From Mucilaginibacter saanensis (GTDB taxonomy: Bacteria > Bacteroidota > Bacteroidia > Sphingobacteriales > Sphingobacteriaceae): a DNA stretch of 64,000 nucleotides. The stretch is taken from assembly GCF_014200575.1 (NCBI RefSeq), contig NZ_JACHBZ010000006.1:124001-188000 (forward strand), read 5' to 3'. The translations under genes and the position numbers were made by a program. The first letter of the stretch is position 1; every line of letters starts with the position of its first letter. The notes under the pieces are model-generated. The model saw only the letters and a program-made list of their open reading frames with translations. It had not been told where the DNA came from and ran no database searches. Shown one piece after another: positions 8,914 through 57,168 of the stretch.

Positions 8914-8951
8914 AAAACAAGCTTCCATTAAGTATACAAGTAGCTTGTTTT
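8914..8951 (+). terminator. Hairpin between the GH5-like and PHP-like genes
   Basis: A perfect 10-bp stem (8914-8923 with 8942-8951) encloses an 18-base loop, and the 3' arm ends in TTTT. It could end the enzyme transcript or act as a partial terminator, since the next gene points the same way. Confidence 0.55.
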
Positions 8952-8971
8952 ATAATCACATAAATTAAACA

Positions 8972-11071
8972 ATGAGGCATCATCAATTTAAACATTTTGC
9001 GGTAAGTGCTTTAATGTTGTTACTGTTCTGTGCCAACAGGGCAAACGCACAGCAAATTGATCTGAAAAACTTTAACCCCAAAACAGGGGTAAGGGTACAA
9101 AACAATCAATCATTGCTAAGCGTAACCTGGCCTGCGGGCAGTAATAGTAACGGGCGCTTGCTGATCAGTTTAAAAAAAGATGCCCCATTGTTTCAAAGTA
9201 TCCAGCTTAGTAAAGGTGGGGTTTATCAGCCAATCATCAATGGCGTTGATCCGCAGTTTATACTTACCGAGGGGAAGCGCGATCTTATATCACAAAACGG
9301 CTGGAATATTTTTTTTGATAAGGTACCCTCAAAACCTCATCAATCTTATAAAGTTAATCTTGATAAAAAAAGTGTTAGCATAAGTTCTTCCAGTTCACGC
9401 ACCATTATAGCCATAGCTAACGTAACTGCGCCGAACTTTAGTGGTAGCCTGGAGATAACTTTATACAACGGGCAGCCGCTTTTTAACATAGCCGCGGTAA
9501 TAACAACACAGGTTGATTCAACCGCGATACTGTATGATGCCGGTTTAATAGCCCACGAGCAACCCATAAAAAAGGTGTCCTGGAGCAATGTTTATGAACA
9601 GCTGCAAACTGACAATATTGGTGATCCGGATACCGCCAGAAATGTAGCTGTAAAATACAGAACCATCATAGGCTCCAATAAAGGCGGAAGCATAGCGGTT
9701 TTCCCTGCGCCGCATCAATATTTTTATCCTCTTGATGAAGCCTTTAACCTTAAGTTTGTTTGGTACGGCAACAATTACCGCAACATGCTGGGCGGTTATG
9801 GTCTGGGTATAAGACAGGAGTTAAACGGCGACAAGCGTTATGTGCCTTGGTTTAACGCCCCGCCGGGAACCCAGCAGCGGCTTAATTTTTTCTGCTTGCT
9901 GGGTGCGGGTGATGCCGCGTCATTGCTTGCTGATGTTAAACAATACACCCATAATGACAGCTATAAACCGTTACCAGGATATAAAACTATGGCCAGTCAC
10001 TTTCATAATGAGTTTATTATGAGTGTGGTGCTGGCGGGTAAACCCGTTGCGGATAGCCCATCGTTTGTGAAGGTGTTAAAGCGGCAGGGGATAAATATTG
10101 TTCACCTAGCCGAGTTTCATTACACAGCACACCCCAAAGGGCCCGACGGGCAGCGTTTACTGGAACTGAAATCACTGTTTGAGCAATGCGAAAGATTGTC
10201 GTCATCAAGCTTTTTGCTGTTGCCTGGCGAGGAGCCCAATGAGTTTTTTGGCGGGCACTGGCTGGCGTTTTTCCCCAAACCGGTTTACTGGGTCATGGCG
10301 CGTAAGCCCGGAACACCTTTTGAAACCACAGATGCAGAACATGGTGAAATTTACCATATAGGCGATAAAAACGATATGCTGGCCCTGCTTAAAACCGAGA
10401 ATGGTTTGGCGTGGACAGCCCATGCCCGTACCAAGGGCTCAACAGGTTTTCCTGATGCCTATAAGGATGAACCATTTTACCGGTCAGACAGGTTTTTAGG
10501 TGCTGCATGGAAGGCCTTGCCTGCCGATCTTTCGCAACCGCGACTGGGTAAACGTGCGCTTGACTTACTTGATGATATGAATAACTGGGGGCTCCAAAAA
10601 AAGATGCTTTCAGAAGCTGATCTGTTCAGTATTGAGCCCGAGAATGAGATGTATGCCCACCTGAATGTGAACTATCTGCAGTTGGATAAGCAACCTCAAT
10701 TTAAAGAAGGGTGGCAGCCGGTACTTGATGTGCTGCAGCAGGGTAGGTTTTTTTCAACCACGGGAGAGGTGCTGATCACGGATTTTAACGTGAACAGACG
10801 TTCATCGGGTCAAACTATGCAGCTGCCCGCAAATGGAAAATGCAACGTTATGTTTAAGGTTGACTGGACATTTCCGTTAAGTTTTGCTGAGATTATATCC
10901 GGTGATGGTAAAAAGGTATACTGTAAACGCATTAACCTGGATTATACTAAAGCATTTGGCATGCAAACCTTTAATATACCCGTTGATATGAAAGGCAGAA
11001 CCTGGGCACGCCTGGAAGTGTGGGATGCGGCAACTAATGGCGCTTTTACGCAAACCGTTTGGTTTAAGTAA
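8972..11071 (+). CDS. Secreted PHP-domain-like protein of unknown function
   Basis: The 699-residue protein has a signal peptide (ending NRANAQ), a beta-rich N-terminal region of about 320 residues, then a segment resembling a PHP-type metallohydrolase. Possible metal ligands are H343 and H345 (HFHNEF), E381 and H383 (AEFHY), E420 and E421 (PGEEPN), the GGHW segment and the histidine in TAHARTKGS. This order recalls CehA/McbA-like PHP proteins. The C-terminal 100 residues look like another beta domain. I cannot name a reaction; a metal-dependent hydrolase acting on a glycan side group is one idea. It stands 71 bases after the GH5-like gene and closes the locus. Confidence 0.6.
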   Translation: MRHHQFKHFAVSALMLLLFCANRANAQQIDLKNFNPKTGVRVQNNQSLLSVTWPAGSNSNGRLLISLKKDAPLFQSIQLSKGGVYQPIINGVDPQFILTEGKRDLISQNGWNIFFDKVPSKPHQSYKVNLDKKSVSISSSSSRTIIAIANVTAPNFSGSLEITLYNGQPLFNIAAVITTQVDSTAILYDAGLIAHEQPIKKVSWSNVYEQLQTDNIGDPDTARNVAVKYRTIIGSNKGGSIAVFPAPHQYFYPLDEAFNLKFVWYGNNYRNMLGGYGLGIRQELNGDKRYVPWFNAPPGTQQRLNFFCLLGAGDAASLLADVKQYTHNDSYKPLPGYKTMASHFHNEFIMSVVLAGKPVADSPSFVKVLKRQGINIVHLAEFHYTAHPKGPDGQRLLELKSLFEQCERLSSSSFLLLPGEEPNEFFGGHWLAFFPKPVYWVMARKPGTPFETTDAEHGEIYHIGDKNDMLALLKTENGLAWTAHARTKGSTGFPDAYKDEPFYRSDRFLGAAWKALPADLSQPRLGKRALDLLDDMNNWGLQKKMLSEADLFSIEPENEMYAHLNVNYLQLDKQPQFKEGWQPVLDVLQQGRFFSTTGEVLITDFNVNRRSSGQTMQLPANGKCNVMFKVDWTFPLSFAEIISGDGKKVYCKRINLDYTKAFGMQTFNIPVDMKGRTWARLEVWDAATNGAFTQTVWFK

Positions 11072-20570: not shown

Positions 20571-20630
20571 ATGTTTCAAGCCGCTTAAGGAGAATTTAAT
20601 TTAGATAAATACCTTATAATAAAATTGTTT

Positions 20631-21491
20631 ATGAAAAGATATTCTGTTTTTTTTACTGTCTGTATGGCCATGGCTATAGGAGGCACCAGCAGTTTTGCGC
20701 AAAAGGGCAAGCCGCTTTTTACCAATGCTATAGGCGTGCAGGCATACACTTTCCGGAGCAGTATGCCCAAGGCAACAGTTGCCGTTTTGGATACCATTAA
20801 AAAGCTGGGTATAACCGAATTGGAGGGAGAGGGGCCCAAAGGTATGGCAACCGAAGAGTTCAGGAAACTGTGCGACCAGCGGGGCATCAAAATACCATCC
20901 ATAGGTGCGGGGTATGACGATATAGTAAAAGACCCGCAAGCTGTTATTAAACAGGCCAAAGTACTGGGTGCAAGCTACGTTATGGTTGCCTGGATACCAC
21001 ATGGCAAAGAGTTTGATATTAATGACGCCAAAAAAGCTGTGGTCGATTTTAACCGCGTTGGCAAAATATTAAAAGAAAGCGGCCTTACCTTTTGCTACCA
21101 TAATCATGGTTATGAATTTGGTAAATATGAAGATGGTACCCTGTTTGATTATATTGCTAAAAACACCAACCCTAAGTATGTGTCCTTTGAGATCGATATC
21201 CTGTGGTCTTTTCATGGCGGGCAGGATCCGGCGCAGCTCATTAACAAATATCCGTCGCGCATGAAGCTGATGCACCTTAAGGATATCAGGAAAGGCATCG
21301 CCAATGACCTTACCGGCGGCACCGATACTAAAAATGATGTAGCCCTGGGTGCTGGGCAAATCAATATTCCCGAGGTGCTAAAGGCAGCAAAAAAAGCAGG
21401 TATCAGGCATTACTTTATCGAGGATGAAAGTCCGTCATACAGCAAGCAGCTGCCAGTTACCATTGCTTATATTAAAGGCTTAACTTATTAA
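20631..21491 (+). CDS. Exported TIM-barrel sugar isomerase/epimerase-family protein
   Basis: The ATG at 20631 is preferred to the in-frame TTG at 20625, because it gives a normal signal peptide (MKRYSVFFTV..., cut near SSFAQ). The 286-residue protein is a xylose-isomerase-like TIM barrel. Likely metal and sugar ligands are the YHNHGYEF segment (H157, H159, E162), E187 and D189 in FEID, H215 and D218 in MHLKD, and E264 in FIEDES. Enzymes of this family isomerise, epimerise or dehydrate sugars. An exported one suggests action on free or oxidised sugars rather than phosphates. Its neighbours are the ThuA/PQQ protein and a second family member. Confidence 0.85.
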   Translation: MKRYSVFFTVCMAMAIGGTSSFAQKGKPLFTNAIGVQAYTFRSSMPKATVAVLDTIKKLGITELEGEGPKGMATEEFRKLCDQRGIKIPSIGAGYDDIVKDPQAVIKQAKVLGASYVMVAWIPHGKEFDINDAKKAVVDFNRVGKILKESGLTFCYHNHGYEFGKYEDGTLFDYIAKNTNPKYVSFEIDILWSFHGGQDPAQLINKYPSRMKLMHLKDIRKGIANDLTGGTDTKNDVALGAGQINIPEVLKAAKKAGIRHYFIEDESPSYSKQLPVTIAYIKGLTY

Positions 21492-21502
21492 TAAAACAAC
21501 TA

Positions 21503-22447
21503 ATGGCTGATAATTCATTAAACCGAAGACAGGTGTTGAAAACTATAGGTTTGGCGGCTGGCGCGGCAGCATTAGGCGGCGGCGCCCAGGCTGTAATTAA
21601 AGTGGATAAGCAGGAGCAGGGCTTTGTGTATTCGCTCAACATGAGTACTATACGCGGGCATAACCTGGGCTTTGTTAAGGAACTGGAGGTGGCGGCCAAA
21701 GCCGGGTTTACTTCTGTAGAAATATGGATGGATACGCTGCAAACCTATTTGAAAAATGGTGGTTCGGTAGCTGAAGCAAAAAAGATCATCGATGGCCTGG
21801 GGATCAGGGTGGAGAATGTTATTGGTTTTGCCCAGTGGATAGTGGATGACGAGGCTACCCGCAAACAGGGGCTTACGCAGCTACAGGGTGAAATGGACTT
21901 ACTGGCTAAAATTGGCTGCCACAGAATTGCCGCCCCACCCGCCGGGGCCACCAAAGCCGCGGTAATTGATCTTGATGTAGTTACAGAGCGATATAATACC
22001 ATTCTGAACATGGGCCGCGAAGCCGGTGTTATGCCCCAGCTGGAAATGTGGGGAGGCTCAACCAATTTGAAACATATAAGCCAGGTATTATATGTAGCAA
22101 CCCAATGCGGACATGCGGATGCCCGGATACTGTTGGATATATTTCATGTGTACAAGGGGCAATCTGCGGTGGAGAGCCTGCAGTTTGTGGGGAAGCCTGC
22201 TTTGGAGATCTTCCACGTAAATGATTACCCCTCGGGTATTGATCCCAGCCAAATTTCGGAACCCGATCGTGTTTACCCCGGGGACGGGGTTGCACCGGTA
22301 AAACGGATATTGCAGCTGGTTAAAAACCCGGCGAGGCCGCTCATTATATCCTGCGAGGTGTTTAATAAAAGCTATTATGCGCAGGACGCCCTGCTGGTAG
22401 CCAAAACAGCACTCCGTAAAATGAAAGCGGTTACTGCCGACGTTTAA
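21503..22447 (+). CDS. TIM-barrel sugar isomerase/epimerase-family protein with Tat-like signal
   Basis: The 314-residue protein begins with a twin-arginine-like signal (LNRRQVLKTIGLAAGAAALG), suggesting export in a folded, probably metal-loaded state. The barrel keeps four likely metal ligands: E181 (PQLEMWG), D212 (LLDIFHV), H238 (FHVND) and E285 (SCEVF), as in xylose-isomerase-like enzymes. It lies 11 bases after the preceding isomerase, so the two are almost surely one transcript. The two proteins are only distantly similar, so they probably act on different substrates or steps. The reaction is not known. Confidence 0.83.
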   Translation: MADNSLNRRQVLKTIGLAAGAAALGGGAQAVIKVDKQEQGFVYSLNMSTIRGHNLGFVKELEVAAKAGFTSVEIWMDTLQTYLKNGGSVAEAKKIIDGLGIRVENVIGFAQWIVDDEATRKQGLTQLQGEMDLLAKIGCHRIAAPPAGATKAAVIDLDVVTERYNTILNMGREAGVMPQLEMWGGSTNLKHISQVLYVATQCGHADARILLDIFHVYKGQSAVESLQFVGKPALEIFHVNDYPSGIDPSQISEPDRVYPGDGVAPVKRILQLVKNPARPLIISCEVFNKSYYAQDALLVAKTALRKMKAVTADV

Positions 22448-22467
22448 ACAGAATACCTAAAAAGGGA

Positions 22468-22584
22468 CTGTCAGTCTGAGCTTGTCGAAGACTTGTGCAT
22501 AGGGCCAGCCCACCACGGTTCGATAAGCTCTCCATGACACCTTTTTTAAACATCATTACTCCTTTCAAATCATATGCCTCCTGG
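22468..22584 (+). repeat. Interspersed repeat, tandem copy 1
   Basis: This 117-base unit starts CTGTCAGTCTGAGC and ends CCTCCTGG. It recurs at 22624-22722 with scattered changes. It contains about 20 extra bases (CGGTTCGATAAGCTC...) that the second copy lacks. Confidence 0.85.
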
Positions 22585-22623
22585 CTGGTGTATAAAAGTT
22601 GTATAAAGAATATAAAAAAGAGG

Positions 22624-22722
22624 CTGTCAGTCTGAGCTTGTCGAAGACTCGCGCATATGGCCAGCCCACCATGGCACCCCGTTTTAAACATCATTACTCT
22701 CTCCAAATCATATACCTCCTGG
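22624..22722 (+). repeat. Interspersed repeat, tandem copy 2
   Basis: This 99-base copy of the 22468-22584 unit is nearly identical over its first 50 and last 40 bases, with an internal deletion. Together the two copies fill the space upstream of the cobalamin-riboswitch promoter. Confidence 0.85.
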
Positions 22723-22761
22723 GGGGATCTACAAATTCAAACTCCCTGTATTTTTTATTCC

Positions 22762-22769
22762 TATATTTG
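22762..22769 (+). promoter_or_regulatory. -7 promoter element for the cobalamin-uptake operon
   Basis: TATATTTG fits TAnnTTTG exactly. A transcript starting 6-9 bases later would begin at the 5' edge of the riboswitch. The -33 element is weak. Confidence 0.5.
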
Positions 22770-22777
22770 CATCGCTT

Positions 22778-22945
22778 TTGGTTCCGCGGCATTATTGGTC
22801 CGTGGATTAAAAGGGAATCCGGTGTAATTCCGGAACTGTCCCGCAGCTGTAAGCTCCGTTAAATGCTATCCATTCTTTTGCCACTGTCCCGATAAGGGAT
22901 GGGAAGGCCGGATAAGCAGGGGAGTAAGTCAGAAGACCTGCCATT
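22778..22945 (+). promoter_or_regulatory. Cobalamin (AdoCbl-type) riboswitch
   Basis: The conserved parts of the class appear in order: TTGGTTCC at the 5' end, AAAAGGGAATCCGGTG at 22810-22825, the CCGGAACTGTCCCGCAGCTG core at 22830-22849, and AGTCAGAAGACCTGCC at 22927-22942. This is the standard cobalamin aptamer. It ends about 118 bases before the TonB-receptor start codon. Cobalamin riboswitches turn off uptake genes when B12 is plentiful. No clear terminator hairpin follows, so control may be at translation. Confidence 0.95.
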
Positions 22946-23063
22946 GCATTATATGTATTCATAGCTTTCGGGGATTGAAGCTGGAATGAAGATACCTCAT
23001 GTGTATTTCCATCTGTTATGGCCCTGTTTGCTGTTTGTTTAATTTTATTACGGACAGAAACTA

Positions 23064-25133
23064 TTGCAACACTTTTACAACTATTTGCGCCTTTTATTTT
23101 TGTCGTTTTGCATGGTAGCAATACAGGGGGCGCTTTGCGGTAATTTGCAGGCGCAAAGTGCTGATACCGTCAGATCGGCATCAAAAGATACTTTAAAAAA
23201 TCATCATCTTAAAGAGGTTGCCATTCGTGCGGGCCGGATCTCGTCGCGTAATACGTCGGCCACACCGCTGCAAATTTTAAAAGGAGCTGAACTTGAAAAG
23301 CTCAACAGCTTTTCTGTAGCCGACGCCATTCGTTTTTTCTCGGGTGTACAGTTAAAGGACTATGGCGGTATCGGCGGATTAAAGACCATTAACGTACGTA
23401 GCCTGGGCAGTAATCACTTAGCCGTTTTTTACGATGGCGTGGAGTTTGGCAATTCGCAGAACGGGCAGGTTGATCTTGGTAAGTTTTCGCTTGACAACAT
23501 AGAAGAAATAGCGCTGTACAATGCGCAAAAAGGTACCATATTTCAGCCAGCAAAAGGATTTTCTGCGGGCAGCGCCATTTATCTCACATCCAGGCACCCC
23601 AATTTTGAACCGGGTAGTAATTCAATCGGGAAAATCAGCCTTAAAACAGGATCATCAGGTTTAATAAATCCATCCTTCTTTTGGCAGTATAAGTTAAGCG
23701 ATAATGTATATAGTACCGTAAGCACTGAAATTATACACGCCAATGGGCGCTATAAATTCACCTATACCAATGGCGTTTACGACACAACAGCCGTAAGGCA
23801 AAATGGCGATATTACCGCACAACGTGTGGAACTTGGATTAAACGGCAAGCTAAGGGATAGCAGTAAATGGGCGGTTAAGGGCTATTTATATAACTCAGAC
23901 AGAGGATTACCCGCCGCAATAGTATCCAACAAATTTGATTCAAACGAACGCCTGTGGGACAGGGATATATTTGTTCAGTCGTCATATAATAAAAAATTTA
24001 GTGATCAGTATAGTTTAATGATGAGCGCTAAGTATGCAAATACCTATAGCCATTATGTTAACCCCGATATTACTACCACTACAGGCTTGCTTAATGATCG
24101 GTATTATGAGGACGAACTTTATTTTTCGGTAGCTAATAAATACCGTATCAATCCATTCTGGGATGTAGACCTGTCTGCAGATTATCAGTGGAATACGCTG
24201 CATATTACCGAAAATGATTCGGCAAAATACCGTTTTGTGCCGCCTGTACGTAATACGCTGTTAACTGCACTGGCCACTGAATTGCATTTTAAACGGCTCA
24301 ATATACAAGCCAATGTGCTGGGTACCTTTGTTAAGGATAAGGTTCCCATACTGAGCAATGCTGACAATACTACGGAGTACACCCCGGCTGTGCTGTTTTC
24401 ATGGCAGCCAACTGATAATCCTGATTTTAGGTTGCGTGGCTTTTACAAAAGCATTTTCAGGCTGCCAACCTTTAATGATCTGTATTACACGTTTGTGGGT
24501 TATGCTGCTGTAAAGCCCGAATTTAACAAGCAGTACGATGTTGGCTTTACCTACAATAAAACCCTGCATCAACAAACCCTGGTATATTTTGCCGTACAAA
24601 CCGATGTTTACTACAACCATGTGAGGGATAAAATTGTGGCCGTTCCCGGGGCCGATTTGGGCCGGTGGTCAATCATTAACCTGGGCAAGGTGCATATTCA
24701 GGGAATTGATGTAAACGCGCAGGCCACGTGGCAGGTATTGCAGGATGTGTTTATAAATACGGGTATTGCTTATACTCACCAAAAATCGGTTGATGTAACC
24801 AACCCAAACGATTTGTTTTATAACCAGCAGATAGCTTATACCCCGGTTAACAACGGGTCGGTATTAATTGGGGGCGAGTGGCGCAAATGGTACTTTACTT
24901 ACAGCTACATATATACCGGCGAGCGTTATAGCCAGAAATATCATGAGGTATCAAACTATTTGCCGCCCTGGTATACGCATGATGCGGGTTTTACCTATAC
25001 CACCAACTACAACAAGCATAAGTTAAAACTCACTGCGGAAATAAACAACCTGCTCAATCAAACCTATGATGTGATTTTCAATTTTCCTTTGCCGGGGCGC
25101 AATTACCGGTTTACCATAAGTTCAACTTTTTAA
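23064..25133 (+). CDS. btuB: TonB-dependent outer-membrane cobalamin receptor, BtuB-like
   Basis: The start is TTG, which gives a good signal peptide (cut near GNLQAQ); the next in-frame ATG would remove half of it. The 689-residue protein has a plug domain (about 50-160, with SVADAIRFFSGVQLKDYGG and the VRSLGSNHLAVFYDGV segment) and a 22-strand barrel ending in the aromatic RFTISSTF, typical of TonB receptors. Its place directly behind a cobalamin riboswitch and in front of a BtuG-like lipoprotein indicates corrinoid import. It is followed after 4 bases by the propeller gene. The specificity rests on context, not on substrate residues. Confidence 0.9.
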   Translation: MQHFYNYLRLLFLSFCMVAIQGALCGNLQAQSADTVRSASKDTLKNHHLKEVAIRAGRISSRNTSATPLQILKGAELEKLNSFSVADAIRFFSGVQLKDYGGIGGLKTINVRSLGSNHLAVFYDGVEFGNSQNGQVDLGKFSLDNIEEIALYNAQKGTIFQPAKGFSAGSAIYLTSRHPNFEPGSNSIGKISLKTGSSGLINPSFFWQYKLSDNVYSTVSTEIIHANGRYKFTYTNGVYDTTAVRQNGDITAQRVELGLNGKLRDSSKWAVKGYLYNSDRGLPAAIVSNKFDSNERLWDRDIFVQSSYNKKFSDQYSLMMSAKYANTYSHYVNPDITTTTGLLNDRYYEDELYFSVANKYRINPFWDVDLSADYQWNTLHITENDSAKYRFVPPVRNTLLTALATELHFKRLNIQANVLGTFVKDKVPILSNADNTTEYTPAVLFSWQPTDNPDFRLRGFYKSIFRLPTFNDLYYTFVGYAAVKPEFNKQYDVGFTYNKTLHQQTLVYFAVQTDVYYNHVRDKIVAVPGADLGRWSIINLGKVHIQGIDVNAQATWQVLQDVFINTGIAYTHQKSVDVTNPNDLFYNQQIAYTPVNNGSVLIGGEWRKWYFTYSYIYTGERYSQKYHEVSNYLPPWYTHDAGFTYTTNYNKHKLKLTAEINNLLNQTYDVIFNFPLPGRNYRFTISSTF

Positions 25134-25137
25134 TGTC

Positions 25138-26283
25138 ATGATGAAAAAGATAAGTTATACCATAAAATGCCTGCTGTTTGGATGCCTCATACTCACCTAC
25201 AGCGCGTGCCGCAAGGCTGCCCAGCCTATACCTGAGCAGGATAAAGCATTGCTGCCGCCTGATCCTACAAGCGTGGTAAAAGGGTTTTACCTGCTTAACG
25301 AGGGTAATATGAATATGAACAAGGCATCGCTTGATTACCTTGACTATACCACCGGGCAATACCGTCGTGATATTTATAACCAAACCAACCCTGATGTAAC
25401 CAAGGGGCTTGGCGATGTGGGGAACGATATTGGCATCTACGGTTCAAAGATGTATGTGGTAGTTAATGTGTCAAACAAGCTAGAGATATTAAATGCACAT
25501 ACCGGCAAGCGTATATCGCTCATCACCATAGCCAACTGCCGTTACGTTACCTTTCATAATGGTAAGGCTTACGTAAGTGCCTACCTGGGCAAAGTGGGTG
25601 ACCCTAATGCACCCAACGGTGCGGTTGATGAAATTGATACGGCAAGTTTGCAGATTACCCGAACGGTAACCGTAGGCCGCCAGCCCGAAGAAATGGCCAT
25701 TGTAGGCGAGAAACTATATGTAGCCAACTCCGGCGGTTACAGCCCGCCAAATTATGAGCGTACGGTTTCTGTAATTGATATAGCAACCTTTAAAGAGCTT
25801 AAACGCATTGATGTAGCAATAAACCTTGACCGTGTAAAGGCTGATAAATACGGTGATATATACGTAACCTCCCGGGGCGATTATTACAAAATCCCCTCCA
25901 AGCTGTTCGTGATCGATACCCAGACAGATATGGTTAAAAAGGAATTTGATTTTGGGGTAAGCAACCTGTGGATAGATGATGACACTGCTTACATGTACAG
26001 TTTTGAGTTTAGTTATATAACGGGTAAAAATACCACCACTTACTCCATGCTCAATGTCAAGGACGAAACCGTATTGGATCGTAAATTTATTACTGACGGT
26101 ACCGACTCGCAGATAAAAGTGCCCTACGGTATTGCGGTAAACCCGGTTACCAAGGATGTGCTGGTTACCGATGCCAAGGACTACGTAAGTCCCGGAACCC
26201 TGTACTGTTTTGACCCTAACGGGAAGAAAAAATGGTCGGTAACGGCAGGCGATATCCCTGCACACTTTGCCTTTACTTATTAA
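25138..26283 (+). CDS. BtuG-like beta-propeller surface lipoprotein (DUF5074/YncE-type)
   Basis: The 381-residue lipoprotein has a lipobox at YSACRKAA and a propeller built of repeated YVTN-like blades (SLDYLDYTTGQ, SKMYVVVNVSNKLEILNAHTGK, KLYVANSGGY, TVSVIDIATFKELKRIDV). In Bacteroides thetaiotaomicron BtuG2, a protein of this type, binds B12 very tightly on the surface and hands it to BtuB. Here it is encoded 4 bases after the btuB-like gene under the same riboswitch, which supports that role. It is the most canonical of three related propellers in this operon. Confidence 0.85.
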   Translation: MMKKISYTIKCLLFGCLILTYSACRKAAQPIPEQDKALLPPDPTSVVKGFYLLNEGNMNMNKASLDYLDYTTGQYRRDIYNQTNPDVTKGLGDVGNDIGIYGSKMYVVVNVSNKLEILNAHTGKRISLITIANCRYVTFHNGKAYVSAYLGKVGDPNAPNGAVDEIDTASLQITRTVTVGRQPEEMAIVGEKLYVANSGGYSPPNYERTVSVIDIATFKELKRIDVAINLDRVKADKYGDIYVTSRGDYYKIPSKLFVIDTQTDMVKKEFDFGVSNLWIDDDTAYMYSFEFSYITGKNTTTYSMLNVKDETVLDRKFITDGTDSQIKVPYGIAVNPVTKDVLVTDAKDYVSPGTLYCFDPNGKKKWSVTAGDIPAHFAFTY

Positions 26284-26311
26284 TAAATACTTATAAATAC
26301 ATACTAATAAA

Positions 26312-27253
26312 ATGATCAAACTAAATCCTAATCGCAGCTTTATTATACCGGCATTGTTTGTCCTGAGTCTTGCATTGTTGGCTTCGTGTAAAAAAGATAT
26401 TGTCGAAAAACTTGTTGTAGTACATGATACGGTAGCCCCGGTAAGTCATGATACGCTATCGCCTATACGGCCGGTAACCGCAACAAGTAATGCTTATGTA
26501 ACCGCACTTTTTGAATACAAACCGACACCGGGCCAGTTTATCAATACCGATTTGGGTAACCAGAAAGGTGCCGAAGGTGTTTTAAAAGGTAACCAGGGCC
26601 TAGTATCGCTTGGTGCGTATGGTGGTTACATCGTTCTTGGGTTTGACCACACCGTTTTAAATGTGCCTAACAGTAATGATTTTATTGTGTTTGGTAACGC
26701 CTTTAACCTGTTTGCCGAACCCGGAGTAATATGGGTTATGGACGATAAAAACGGCAACGGAAAACCTGATGATACCTGGTATGAGCTTAAAGGCAGCCAA
26801 TATGGTCATGACGGTTATATCCGCAATTACGAGGTTACCTACACCCGTCCTGCAGCCGATACCAGCGACATACCATGGAAAGACAACATGGGCGGTACCG
26901 GCTTTGTAAAAAGGAATATTTACAACCAGCAAACTACCTACTTTCCGGAATGGGTAAACGCTAAGGAATTTACCGTAACCGGTTCATTACTGCCCTCTAC
27001 CAATATCGATGACAGTAATCCAGAATACATCATCAGCCGTTCTTTTGATTTTGGTTATGCTGATAACACCGCAGGCGGCGACAAGGTTGATATTTCCAAC
27101 GCTATTGATAAAAATGGCAATAGGGTAAAACTTAAAGGTATCGATTTTATAAAGGTACAAACCGGCGTATTGTATGATATGGGCTGGCTGGGCGAGCAAT
27201 CAACCGAGGTATGCGGCGCTGCCGACCTTAGTATGGTAAAACTGGATCAGTAA
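26312..27253 (+). CDS. Cell-surface lipoprotein of cobalamin-uptake operons
   Basis: The 313-residue lipoprotein has a lipobox at LLASCKKD and one compact beta-rich domain. Striking segments are FEYKPTPGQFIN, NDFIVFGNAF, and DDKNGNGKPDDTWYELKGS, where DKNGNGKPDD looks like a calcium-binding loop. Proteins with this domain commonly sit beside BtuB and BtuG genes in Bacteroidota. I think it belongs to that accessory group, possibly a corrinoid-binding or docking partner, but its function is not established. It lies 28 bases after the BtuG-like gene. Confidence 0.7.
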   Translation: MIKLNPNRSFIIPALFVLSLALLASCKKDIVEKLVVVHDTVAPVSHDTLSPIRPVTATSNAYVTALFEYKPTPGQFINTDLGNQKGAEGVLKGNQGLVSLGAYGGYIVLGFDHTVLNVPNSNDFIVFGNAFNLFAEPGVIWVMDDKNGNGKPDDTWYELKGSQYGHDGYIRNYEVTYTRPAADTSDIPWKDNMGGTGFVKRNIYNQQTTYFPEWVNAKEFTVTGSLLPSTNIDDSNPEYIISRSFDFGYADNTAGGDKVDISNAIDKNGNRVKLKGIDFIKVQTGVLYDMGWLGEQSTEVCGAADLSMVKLDQ

Positions 27254-27284
27254 TTAACCATGAATTTAAATTAGAAACATCCAT

Positions 27285-28412
27285 ATGAAAAAATCTGCCT
27301 TAAAACTACTACCCTGTATTTTTCCTGTACTGTTACTGGTAAGTTCCTGTAAAAAGGATATTATCAATAAAGCACAGGGTGTAAATTCTGTCACTGATAA
27401 AGCCCTTACCATACGGAGTGTAGGGAAATATGATAATGGCTTTTTCCTGATAAACGAAGGCTGGTACGCTCATGGTACCGGTACAGTTAGCTTTTATGAC
27501 TATGGCACCGGTACTATAACTGATAGTGTTTTTACTAAAGAAAACCCGGGCCTGAATCTGAATCCCACCAGCAGCACTTTACAGTATGGTACCATTTTTA
27601 ATGATAAGTTATTTTTGGTAAGTAAAGTAGGCGGGCCCTTTGTAATTGTCAATTCGCATACCTTAAAAGAAATTAACCGCATTGCCGCAAAAAGCACTAA
27701 TGATTTCAGGGCCTTTGTAGGTATTGACACTACCAAAGGTTTAATAAGTACCGGCAGCGGCATTTATCCTGTTAATTTGCAAACACTGGCTTTGGGTACC
27801 AAAATAAGCGGTGTAACCGGCCAGGTTGGCGATATGATAAAAGCAGGAAATTATGTTTTTGTGTTATCACAATCAAGCGGAGTGATTGTATTAAATGCAT
27901 CAACCAATGCGGTTGTTAAAACCATAACGGGTATGTTATGCGCATTTGCACGCAGTATGGATGGTGCCATCTGGGCTGCGGGCGGTACACAGCTTATTCG
28001 GATTGATCCGGCTACTTTGGTGGTGCAAACAATCACAGTACCCTTCCAGATCTATGGCTCATGGTCTGCATGGCACCCGGGATCAATCACTGCGTCAACT
28101 ACCGAAAATGCTATTTTTATAGCCCGTAATGCAACATCATCAGGTGGTACACAGGTTTATAAATACACCGCAGCTAACAGTGCATCATTTACCACACCGT
28201 TTATAACTGTGCCAACCGGCCGGGAATTATACGGCGCTGGTGTGGCTTATGCCCCTGCGCATAATCAGGTTATCGTAAATACCGTTCACTCTGGGTTTAC
28301 CACTAATTTCAGCTTTAACGACCTTGTTTTTTATAATGCATCAAGCGGGGCACAAATAAACGATATTGCTTATACCGGCTATTATTTTCCATCTGTAGCC
28401 GTATTTCACTAA
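27285..28412 (+). CDS. DUF5074-like propeller lipoprotein, tandem paralogue A
   Basis: The 375-residue lipoprotein (lipobox LLVSSCKKD) is a propeller-like protein with repeated strands (NGFFLINEGW, GTVSFYDYGTG, NDKLFLVSKVGGPFVIV, GNYVFVLSQSSGVIVLN). It is clearly a duplicate of the next gene: long stretches match almost word for word, such as AFVGID, KAGNYVF, DGAIWAAGG and AWHPGSITASTT. It is more distant from the BtuG-like protein upstream. The position 31 bases after the third operon gene suggests corrinoid capture too, perhaps with another specificity. This is inference. Confidence 0.75.
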   Translation: MKKSALKLLPCIFPVLLLVSSCKKDIINKAQGVNSVTDKALTIRSVGKYDNGFFLINEGWYAHGTGTVSFYDYGTGTITDSVFTKENPGLNLNPTSSTLQYGTIFNDKLFLVSKVGGPFVIVNSHTLKEINRIAAKSTNDFRAFVGIDTTKGLISTGSGIYPVNLQTLALGTKISGVTGQVGDMIKAGNYVFVLSQSSGVIVLNASTNAVVKTITGMLCAFARSMDGAIWAAGGTQLIRIDPATLVVQTITVPFQIYGSWSAWHPGSITASTTENAIFIARNATSSGGTQVYKYTAANSASFTTPFITVPTGRELYGAGVAYAPAHNQVIVNTVHSGFTTNFSFNDLVFYNASSGAQINDIAYTGYYFPSVAVFH

Positions 28413-28422
28413 TTAATCAATG

Positions 28423-28451
28423 TAATGAACGGGCGTTAAGTCCGTTCATTA
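28423..28451 (+). terminator. Hairpin between the two tandem propeller genes
   Basis: A perfect 10-bp stem (28423-28432 with 28442-28451) closes a 9-base loop in the 72-base gap. It lacks a T tract, so it may be a partial terminator or an RNA-processing site that sets lower expression of the last gene. Confidence 0.5.
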
Positions 28452-28484
28452 TGTTAACATCAACAACTTAAAAAAGAAAGAACA

Positions 28485-29579
28485 ATGAAAAAAACAATTA
28501 CTTTAAAACTGCTTCCATACATTTTCCCGGTGCTGTTAATGGCTGTGGTAAGCTCTTGTAAAAAAGACCATGATGTTAAGATAGAGCCGGTAGGTAAATA
28601 CGAAAATGGCTTTTTTATCATCAACGAAGGTTCGTACGGAACGGTAGACGGCTCTGTAAGCTTTTTTGACTACACCAAAGGCACATTGACCGACAGTATC
28701 TTCACTAAAGAAAACACAGGTAAAAACCTTGATCCAAATACTTCAACGCTTGAGTTTGGTACAGTTTATAACCATAAATTGTATTTGTTAAGTAAGTCCG
28801 GCGGTCCGCTGGTAGTAACCGACGATAATTCATTGAAAGAAACTGGCCGTATAGCTGCCGCTCCTGCTAATGACTGGCGCGCATTTGTTGGGATTGATAA
28901 TAATACCGGCCTGGTAAGTACCGGTGATGGTATTTACCCGCTTAATCTGCAAGCCGTTACCCTGGGTTCAAAAATAGCTGGTGTAAACGGCGAAGTAGGC
29001 GACCTGGTAAAAGCCGGCAACTATGTATTTGCTTTATCAAAAACAGACGGTGTGGTGATATTAAATGCCTCTACTTATGCGGTTGTTAAATCAATTCCAG
29101 GTATGGTGGTTGCATTTGCGCGCAGTAAAGATGGCGCTATATGGGCTGCAGGCGGCAAAGTGCTGGTACGTATTGATCCGTCTACACTGGCGGTGCAAAA
29201 CATCCCGGTATCATTTACGGTTAATGACAGCTGGGGTGCATGGCATCCGGGCTCTATCACGGCTTCAACTACTGACAATGCTATTTTCCTGGCCAACAAT
29301 AATGGTCCGTATAACAGCGGTGGTACTGATATTTATAAATACACCGCTACCAACAGCGCATCATTTGCAGCACCTTTTATTACTATACCTGCCGGTAAAG
29401 CATTATATGGCGCAGGCCTGGCTTATAGTGCCAAGCTCAATCAGTTGGTAGTTACCGCAGTAAATGCCGACTACAGCAGCGGTAATGATCTGTATTTTTA
29501 TGATACTACAAGTGGCTCTCAAATTAAGGATGTTACTTATCCGGGTTACTTTTTCCCGGCTACTCCTGCATTTCATTAA
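28485..29579 (+). CDS. DUF5074-like propeller lipoprotein, tandem paralogue B
   Basis: The 364-residue lipoprotein (lipobox VVSSCKKD) is the sister of the preceding gene. The two share the same order of blade motifs and similar lengths, and by eye well over half their residues match. Differences cluster at the N-terminus and in loops between blades, where ligand contacts would be expected. A strong terminator follows, so it is the last gene of the riboswitch-controlled operon. The role in corrinoid binding is inferred from family and position. Confidence 0.75.
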   Translation: MKKTITLKLLPYIFPVLLMAVVSSCKKDHDVKIEPVGKYENGFFIINEGSYGTVDGSVSFFDYTKGTLTDSIFTKENTGKNLDPNTSTLEFGTVYNHKLYLLSKSGGPLVVTDDNSLKETGRIAAAPANDWRAFVGIDNNTGLVSTGDGIYPLNLQAVTLGSKIAGVNGEVGDLVKAGNYVFALSKTDGVVILNASTYAVVKSIPGMVVAFARSKDGAIWAAGGKVLVRIDPSTLAVQNIPVSFTVNDSWGAWHPGSITASTTDNAIFLANNNGPYNSGGTDIYKYTATNSASFAAPFITIPAGKALYGAGLAYSAKLNQLVVTAVNADYSSGNDLYFYDTTSGSQIKDVTYPGYFFPATPAFH

Positions 29580-29621
29580 TTAAGGCTTTTGCCACAGTAT
29601 TTAATCGCCAGTTAATCAAAT

Positions 29622-29650
29622 AGAAAGGCTACCGAAAGGTGGCCTTTCTT
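29622..29650 (+). terminator. Terminator of the cobalamin-uptake operon
   Basis: A 12-bp stem (AGAAAGGCTACC with GGTGGCCTTTCT, one G-T pair) closes a GAAA tetraloop 42 bases after the last stop codon. Confidence 0.8.
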
Positions 29651-29903
29651 ATGCGATAATTTGCTGTTATTATGATGTAATAAGATAAAACTTTTATTAG
29701 TTTAGGCGCTTTTGGCAGTGATTTAAAGACTTTTTTGATGCGTTTTTAACTAATTCATTTTATCAATATCATTTGCGAAATGAACAAGAAAAACAAAGAG
29801 TGTTGTTGTGAATAAATTGGAGTTTTTATCAATTTATGAACAGGAATACCATCAAGGTTTAAATTATTTTAGGAGTTGAAACGTTTAGTTATTTAACCAC
29901 ATT
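29651..29903. other. AT-rich upstream region of the hybrid histidine kinase gene
   Basis: No ORF or clear promoter pair was found. The stretch after the terminator is very AT-rich and includes GAAACGTTTAG at 29878-29888, holding a short AAACGTTT self-complementary core like the half-sites upstream of fbp. Confidence 0.35.
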
Positions 29904-57060: not shown

Positions 57061-57065
57061 CAGCA

Positions 57066-57142
57066 ACTTTAGGGGTGTCCCGATGCGGACTGAGATAATA
57101 CCCTTTGAACCTGATGCAGTTAGTACTGCCGAAGGGAAAAGT
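57066..57142 (+). promoter_or_regulatory. TPP (thiamin pyrophosphate) riboswitch
   Basis: The THI-box aptamer is complete. P1 is formed by ACTTT (57066-57070) with AAAGT (57138-57142). The GGGGTG, GCGGACTGAGAT, CCCTTTGAACCTGAT and GCAGTTAGTACTGCCGAAGGG conserved parts follow in order. TPP binding shuts down thiamin synthesis genes. It controls the thiS-to-thiD operon directly downstream. Confidence 0.97.
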
Positions 57143-57168
57143 GAAAGCAACCTTGTACGTTGTTTTTT
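57143..57168 (+). terminator. Terminator (expression platform) of the TPP riboswitch
   Basis: A 9-bp stem with two G-T pairs (57143-57151 with 57159-57167) closes a 7-base loop and runs into a T-rich tail (TTTTTTCCTT). It starts right after the aptamer's P1 helix, suggesting control by premature termination when TPP is bound. Confidence 0.65.

Follow-up and report, generated by a model that had tools for sequence, protein, structure and literature searches.

The closest described relative of the system considered here is locus 1 of Bacteroides thetaiotaomicron (BT_1486-1491), which according to PMC12751083 comprises BtuK1, BtuK2, BtuH1, BtuB1, BtuGH and BtuJ1, with three propellers for one BtuB. 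A further Bacteroides locus, in Bacteroides faecis (L008), has the order K1 (PKD_3 and DUF5074), K2 (PKD_3), H1, riboswitch, B1, GH and a DUF4465 protein, with another riboswitch preceding K1, and so matches the published B. thetaiotaomicron layout. Here we describe a cobalamin riboswitch and five following genes in a 64,000-nucleotide stretch of Mucilaginibacter saanensis (NCBI RefSeq assembly GCF_014200575.1, contig NZ_JACHBZ010000006.1, positions 124,001 to 188,000), referred to below as the window. We consider it very probable, at roughly 0.88, that these genes form an operon for scavenging corrinoids, built on the BtuB1-BtuG1-BtuH-BtuK pattern.

The Mucilaginibacter locus shares with B. 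thetaiotaomicron locus 1 its apparent riboswitch control, a BtuB1 receptor, a BtuG1 lid, a BtuH domain and two tandem BtuK-type propellers, here named B and C. It differs in that btuB rather than btuK comes first, BtuG and BtuH are encoded by separate genes rather than fused, one riboswitch is present rather than two, BtuJ (DUF4465) was not found in a search of the whole genome, and the btuK pair arose separately and encodes proteins without the N-terminal PKD_3 domain. The parts are all known from gut Bacteroides, and such an operon in a soil-type member of the Bacteroidota is mostly ordinary; these comparisons, and the receptor's match to BtuB1, led us to reject the view that the locus is unlike those of Bacteroides. 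What is new is small, and consists of loop differences between the neighbouring copies B and C.

Results

Riboswitch and gene order

The gene content and order, riboswitch, families, predicted folds, duplication and loop changes reported below were established by computation. The features of the locus are as follows.

22761-22959, + strand, cobalamin riboswitch aptamer (RF00174, full model 1-189)
23064-25133, + strand, btuB, TonB-dependent corrinoid receptor of BtuB1 type (PF00593, PF07715; TTG start predicted in the open reading frame listing)
25138-26283, + strand, btuG, propeller surface lipoprotein of BtuG1 type (PF16819, 59.7 bits)
26312-27253, + strand, btuH, BtuH-domain lipoprotein without PKD or propeller part (no Pfam match; match to 7biz)
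27285-28412, + strand, btuK-type propeller lipoprotein B (PF16819, 337 bits, full-length)
27453-27485, + strand, codons of the B loop N57-T67 (NEGWYAHGTGT), aligned with the BtuG2 pliers loop Asn54-Thr64 (PMC10404256)
28419-28455, + strand, intercistronic stem-loop between B and C, without T-run (-20.9 kcal/mol, z -6.36)
28485-29579, + strand, btuK-type propeller lipoprotein C (PF16819, 293.3 bits, full-length)
about 29620-29652, + strand, stem-loop after the last gene, likely terminator (-21.7 kcal/mol, z -6.15)

A covariance-model search of the window scored the aptamer at 111.4 bits against a gathering score of 31.5 (E 4.4e-27). Its 3' end lies 104 nt from the listed start of btuB, and the five genes, all on the riboswitch's strand, are separated by gaps of 4, 28, 31 and 72 nt. 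All four proteins after BtuB carry what we take to be lipobox-like signals (YSAC, LASC, VSSC and VSSC). The stretch between riboswitch and btuB folds no better than its shuffles (z -0.09), and we therefore claim no expression platform; promoter-like sites in the scan were no more frequent than chance predicts (17, against 18.4 in shuffles) and were not used. An initial annotation of this DNA had proposed that a riboswitch controls a corrinoid-capture operon encoding three propeller lipoproteins, and this proposal is well supported: the riboswitch, the gene order and the propeller duplication were all recovered, with three PF16819 matches among the five genes.

Receptor, lid and BtuH

The closest solved structure to the receptor is BtuB1 (8blw_A, E 5e-129), which matches residues 41-686 of 689; the next chain is 8bmx_C (E 9.1e-24) and the rest are weaker. 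The gene at 25138-26283 adjoins btuB, encodes a PF16819 propeller and matches solved BtuG proteins, the top matches being 8ptf, 8ptd and 8blw_B (BtuG1) with E values from 4.3e-49 to 8.9e-49; the 8ptf entry is titled BtuG2, but its printed aligned stretch is identical to that of 8ptd, titled BtuG1. It is this gene, and not B or C, that encodes the BtuG of the window. Contacts in BtuG and BtuH were placed by eye from printed alignments. In the window BtuG, the loop matching BtuG2 Asn54-Thr64 begins with the same N-E-G-N, and equivalents of BtuG2 Tyr239, Trp272 and Tyr316 are present, while that of Trp194 is absent (residues from PMC10404256).

The accessory surface lipoprotein of the initial annotation can now be named as a BtuH-domain protein, since its best solved match is BtuH2, a locus-2 protein (7biz, E 3.5e-60), followed by the BtuH part of BtuG1 (8blw_B, E 2.8e-55). 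The C-terminal B12 domain of 7biz covers residues 63-308 of the 313-residue protein, which differs from BtuH2 in lacking PKD domains; the Pfam scan found none of these, and no other Pfam match. Six of the eight BtuH2 ligand contacts given in PMC8941943 are kept (Gln333, Asn399, Phe401, Tyr510, Trp577 and Leu578).

Propellers B and C are of BtuK type

B and C sit in a cobalamin-riboswitch locus and are closest to BtuK1 rather than to BtuG, both by sequence and by predicted fold. The profile match to BtuK1 (9s6c) spans the whole length and scores 277.8 bits, against 63.1 for the best BtuG, and identity to BtuK1 in the structural alignment is 27% for B and 25% for C. With BtuG2, solved together with BtuB2 (8bmx), both share the propeller fold and an equivalent pliers loop, at 20% (B) and 19% (C) identity. 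Neither protein has a match to the N-terminal PKD_3 domain (PF16820) of Bacteroides BtuK, which was found in both K1 and K2 of B. faecis. The domain varies within the family, being precomputed in 43 of the 120 homologues listed (259 found), while the other 77 are without it.

A link between PF16819 and B12 loci is already in print in PMC13398666, where PF16819 lies near 40% of one DUF4465 cluster. A literature search on DUF5074 turned up one vesicle proteomics paper; searches on PDB 9s6c and on Mucilaginibacter with cobalamin and BtuB found no paper.

A likely ligand loop differs between B and C

In simulations described in PMC10404256, Asn54-Thr64 and loop beta5A of BtuG2 grip the ligand 'like a pair of pliers'. 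This segment (NEGNFQYSNAT) aligns with N57-T67 of B, and we infer from BtuG2 that the loop contacts ligand in BtuK as well. The BtuK1-type loop NEGW-x-GH is intact in B, while C reads NEGS-x-x-T and so is without the Trp and His of the BtuK1 loop. Counts were taken over 175 aligned family rows, in which a few proteins were entered twice (e.g. P0047/L093_7760 and P0010/L089_8632); alignments A1 and A2 held 38 of the 120 listed homologues and 12 locus proteins. Trp60 is kept in 14/14 rows of the B clade and 136/142 other rows, but in 4/19 of the C clade, where Ser (8) and Asn (7) replace it. Gly64 is lost in 14/19 and His63 in 7/19 C-clade rows, and the window C has lost all three residues. N-E-G, Trp260 and Trp263 are kept in 19/19 C-clade rows, the window C included. 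When 75 columns at least 90% conserved among 134 other rows were followed (Bacteroides rows L008-L011 and L043 left out), nine fell below 60% in B or C; the strongest losses in C were Trp60 and Gly64, both in the ligand loop, and those in B were Trp141 (Phe in 14/14) and Gly297.

Judged by this loop, B is probably a corrinoid binder, and the window C probably has altered binding because the near-invariant Trp60 and His63 are lost. The C protein might go further than this and be a degenerate, non-binding paralogue like BtuK2, either vanishing or kept for another task, for example on surface vesicles. The losses just described are consistent with such a fate, as is the absence of the entire loop from non-binding BtuK2 (BT1487, 4r5o) and from the aligned Bacteroides K2 rows, and BtuK2 is among the proteins with the highest relative vesicle enrichment in PMC12751083. 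However, the window C is intact and differs from BtuK2 in keeping the NEG core of the loop; it also keeps Trp260 and Trp263; the C proteins of two other Mucilaginibacter loci (L080 and L081) have a full NEGW-x-GH loop; and BtuG2, with Asn in place of Trp60, is a good binder, so this Trp is not needed for binding in general. We regard a wholly non-binding C as possible but somewhat doubtful, and an altered C beside a corrinoid-binding B as the better description.

Duplication and distribution

A tree of 57 propellers, flagged for long branches that include those of Bacteroides, places B and C in sister clades within Mucilaginibacter, with support for each (B 100/100, C 99/96) and for the two together (96/98). 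B and C thus arose by tandem btuK duplication inside this genus. The Bacteroides K1/K2 pair is distant and on long branches, and the pair of the Mucilaginibacter locus L086 is separate. The tree omitted L013 and L031 (the same records as L092 and L078), L040, which was removed by hand, and matches of 60 bits or less (the second propeller of L011); the Bacteroides K2 rows of L008-L010 were assigned to the tree set by position. One copy of the L089 pair belongs to the B clade while the other is placed, at low support, immediately outside the two clades, and a single copy each is present in L093 and L079; some copies may therefore have been lost, or the duplication may be slightly older.

A btuK-type match above 280 bits was found in 17 of 100 Mucilaginibacter genomes, drawn evenly from a larger group and including that of the window, and five of the 17 have two such matches. 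Besides the window's locus, 16 loci were fetched: 14 hold btuB-btuG-btuH-btuK, with a riboswitch in all four scanned directly (L080, L081, L086 and L089), and two hold btuH-btuK only, both behind a riboswitch. Such riboswitch-btuH-btuK units, with no btuB or btuG in the fetched stretch, stand at L082 (7628-10345) and L083 (6249-9042). At L094 (10063-10253) a second cobalamin riboswitch lies directly 3' of btuB-btuG.

Beyond the genus, the 9s6c fragment as query gave 36 loci in named genomes. The order btuB-btuG-btuH-btuK occurs in 12 of them, from Mucilaginibacter, Pedobacter, Sinomicrobium and Gelidibacter, and in some Pedobacter extra btuG- and btuH-like genes are interposed. The initial annotation had set the operon against Bacteroides systems with one BtuG per BtuB, a contrast that is mostly wrong given the three propellers of B. 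thetaiotaomicron locus 1, and that is further weakened by Pedobacter, where L018 has three PF16819 propellers and L019 has four by protein search alone. In Flavobacterium loci, btuK lies 268-335 nt 3' of a riboswitch, and relatives of btuB, btuG and btuH were not found within the fetched stretch. In Chitinophaga (L020), btuK is flanked on one side by a TonB receptor and a DUF6580 gene and on the other by cobU-cobT-cobS; the DUF6580 protein (8915-9511), encoded between receptor and btuK, is a candidate corrinoid transport or salvage gene. A same-strand riboswitch stands upstream of btuK within the fetched stretch at 29 of 34 loci (the 36 less L019 and L029); positions of riboswitch and locus were matched without contig names, and direct scans of seven loci agreed.

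These distributions bear on the proposal of the initial annotation that three BtuG-like propellers cooperate at one BtuB or widen the range of corrinoids captured. The operon does encode three PF16819 propellers, but the sequence-profile and fold matches given above led us to reject B and C as additional BtuG copies, and their label should read BtuK. Moreover, btuK is not tied to one BtuB, because it stands with btuH away from btuB-btuG in L082 and L083 and without either in Flavobacterium, and in the B. thetaiotaomicron study binding by BtuK2 was not seen. The proposal is therefore unlikely. It is highly improbable that B and C have nothing to do with corrinoids and are general surface propellers present in the operon by chance: PF16819 is a Pfam family of unknown function with low-score matches in other, larger Mucilaginibacter proteins too, but upstream cobalamin riboswitches recur across related loci, the best match of B and C in sequence and fold is a B12-binding protein, and the Chitinophaga btuK lies beside cobU, cobT and cobS.

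Corrinoid use by the host

The genome encodes MetH (1699 bits) and a protein with the methylmalonyl-CoA mutase C-terminal domain, both above cut-off. It also encodes an IcmF-like protein that is truncated in the fetched stretch, and two radical-SAM proteins whose matches to B12 families stay under the cut-off. Of the synthesis genes, only the marker families CbiC (PF02570) and CobT (PF02277) were searched for, and neither was found in the whole genome. The presence of metH and the mutase proteins and the failure to find CbiC and CobT fit a host that scavenges corrinoids for use rather than making them itself. The sole cobalamin riboswitch of the genome besides that of the operon precedes metE, presumably encoding the B12-independent methionine synthase.

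Stem-loops and flanking features

The initial annotation placed all five genes before one terminator. A strong 3' stem-loop is indeed present after the last gene, although a simple consensus terminator scan did not list it, but a single terminator for the whole operon is not proven, because another stem-loop stands between B and C. The latter has a 16-bp stem without a T-run, and may be an attenuator or an mRNA-stabilising end. It was rejected as a dispersed repeat, its 21-base core occurring once in the genome with up to two mismatches allowed. The gap that holds it measures 72 nt, compared with 12-26 nt between the copies in four other tandem btuK loci.

Just 5' of the riboswitch (22459-22722) are direct repeats of 60 nt and 41 nt, two copies each (90% alike), with copies 156 nt and 138 nt apart, respectively. 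Further upstream (20625-22447), two AP_endonuc_2 proteins (xylose isomerase-like TIM barrels) are encoded one after the other; the second weakly matches a TAT signal. Elsewhere in the window is a TPP riboswitch (57061-57154, 73.4 bits).

Discussion

If the operon works as its relatives suggest, low intracellular cobamide would let the riboswitch leave the message on. By analogy, BtuB would be the outer-membrane channel and BtuG its hinged lid, and BtuH and the BtuK-type propellers would be exported to the surface as lipoproteins that capture corrinoids and hand them over to BtuBG. With its full ligand-gripping loop, B would be expected to bind corrinoids tightly, like BtuK1, while C, in which the fold and NEG core are kept, would probably bind more weakly, bind other corrinoids or have another surface role.

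Several observations weigh against a scavenging operon of this kind or against the part given to its loops. The receptor scores far under the NCBI equivalog cut-offs for BtuB (76.7 against 599.7 for TIGR01779, and 55.4 against 836 for PRK10641); however, the BtuB1 of B. faecis is likewise under the NCBI BtuB equivalog cut-off (74.6), and the NCBIfam models therefore look too narrow for Bacteroidota. Two of the eight BtuH2 contacts are changed in the window BtuH (His476 to Asn and Trp511 to Ile). A BtuF-type protein (PF01497) was not found in the window; three genome matches lie on other contigs, the best candidate reaching 70.8 bits against an NCBI cut-off of 234. The 72-nt gap and stem-loop ahead of C could reduce read-through into this gene. 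Among the related loci, an upstream riboswitch was not found in five of 34 (L020, L021, L026, L034 and L041), although in L026 and L034 the contig begins near the gene, and in L041 no btuK-type protein was picked up. The loop difference is also not uniform, since the C proteins of L080 and L081 keep the full motif and the tandem pair of L086 keeps the loop in both copies. The literature searched gave no binding, expression or localisation data for this organism.

The divergence of B and C lies in their likely ligand loop, and partition or loss of binding is therefore a sharper hypothesis than a simple widening of capture. Tandem btuK duplication has occurred several times in Bacteroidota, giving the Bacteroides K1/K2 pair, the Mucilaginibacter B/C pair and the further Mucilaginibacter pair of L086, with the corrinoid-gripping loop changed in one copy of two of the three pairs (deleted in BtuK2, and without its Trp in most C-clade members). 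We suggest, as a tentative idea about which we are rather doubtful, that such pairs split capture between a tight general binder and a copy that is re-tuned to other corrinoids or has taken on a non-binding surface task.

With this locus, the capture set of B. thetaiotaomicron locus 1 is extended from gut Bacteroides to Mucilaginibacter and genera related to it, and most of the fetched relatives on the BtuK branch of PF16819 are tied to cobalamin riboswitches. The occurrence of the loop in three states (intact, Trp lost and deleted) points to a simple way of testing why BtuK1 is a binder and BtuK2 is not. The part worth keeping is the repeated tandem duplication of btuK, in which one copy has lost or changed its ligand loop in two of three cases.

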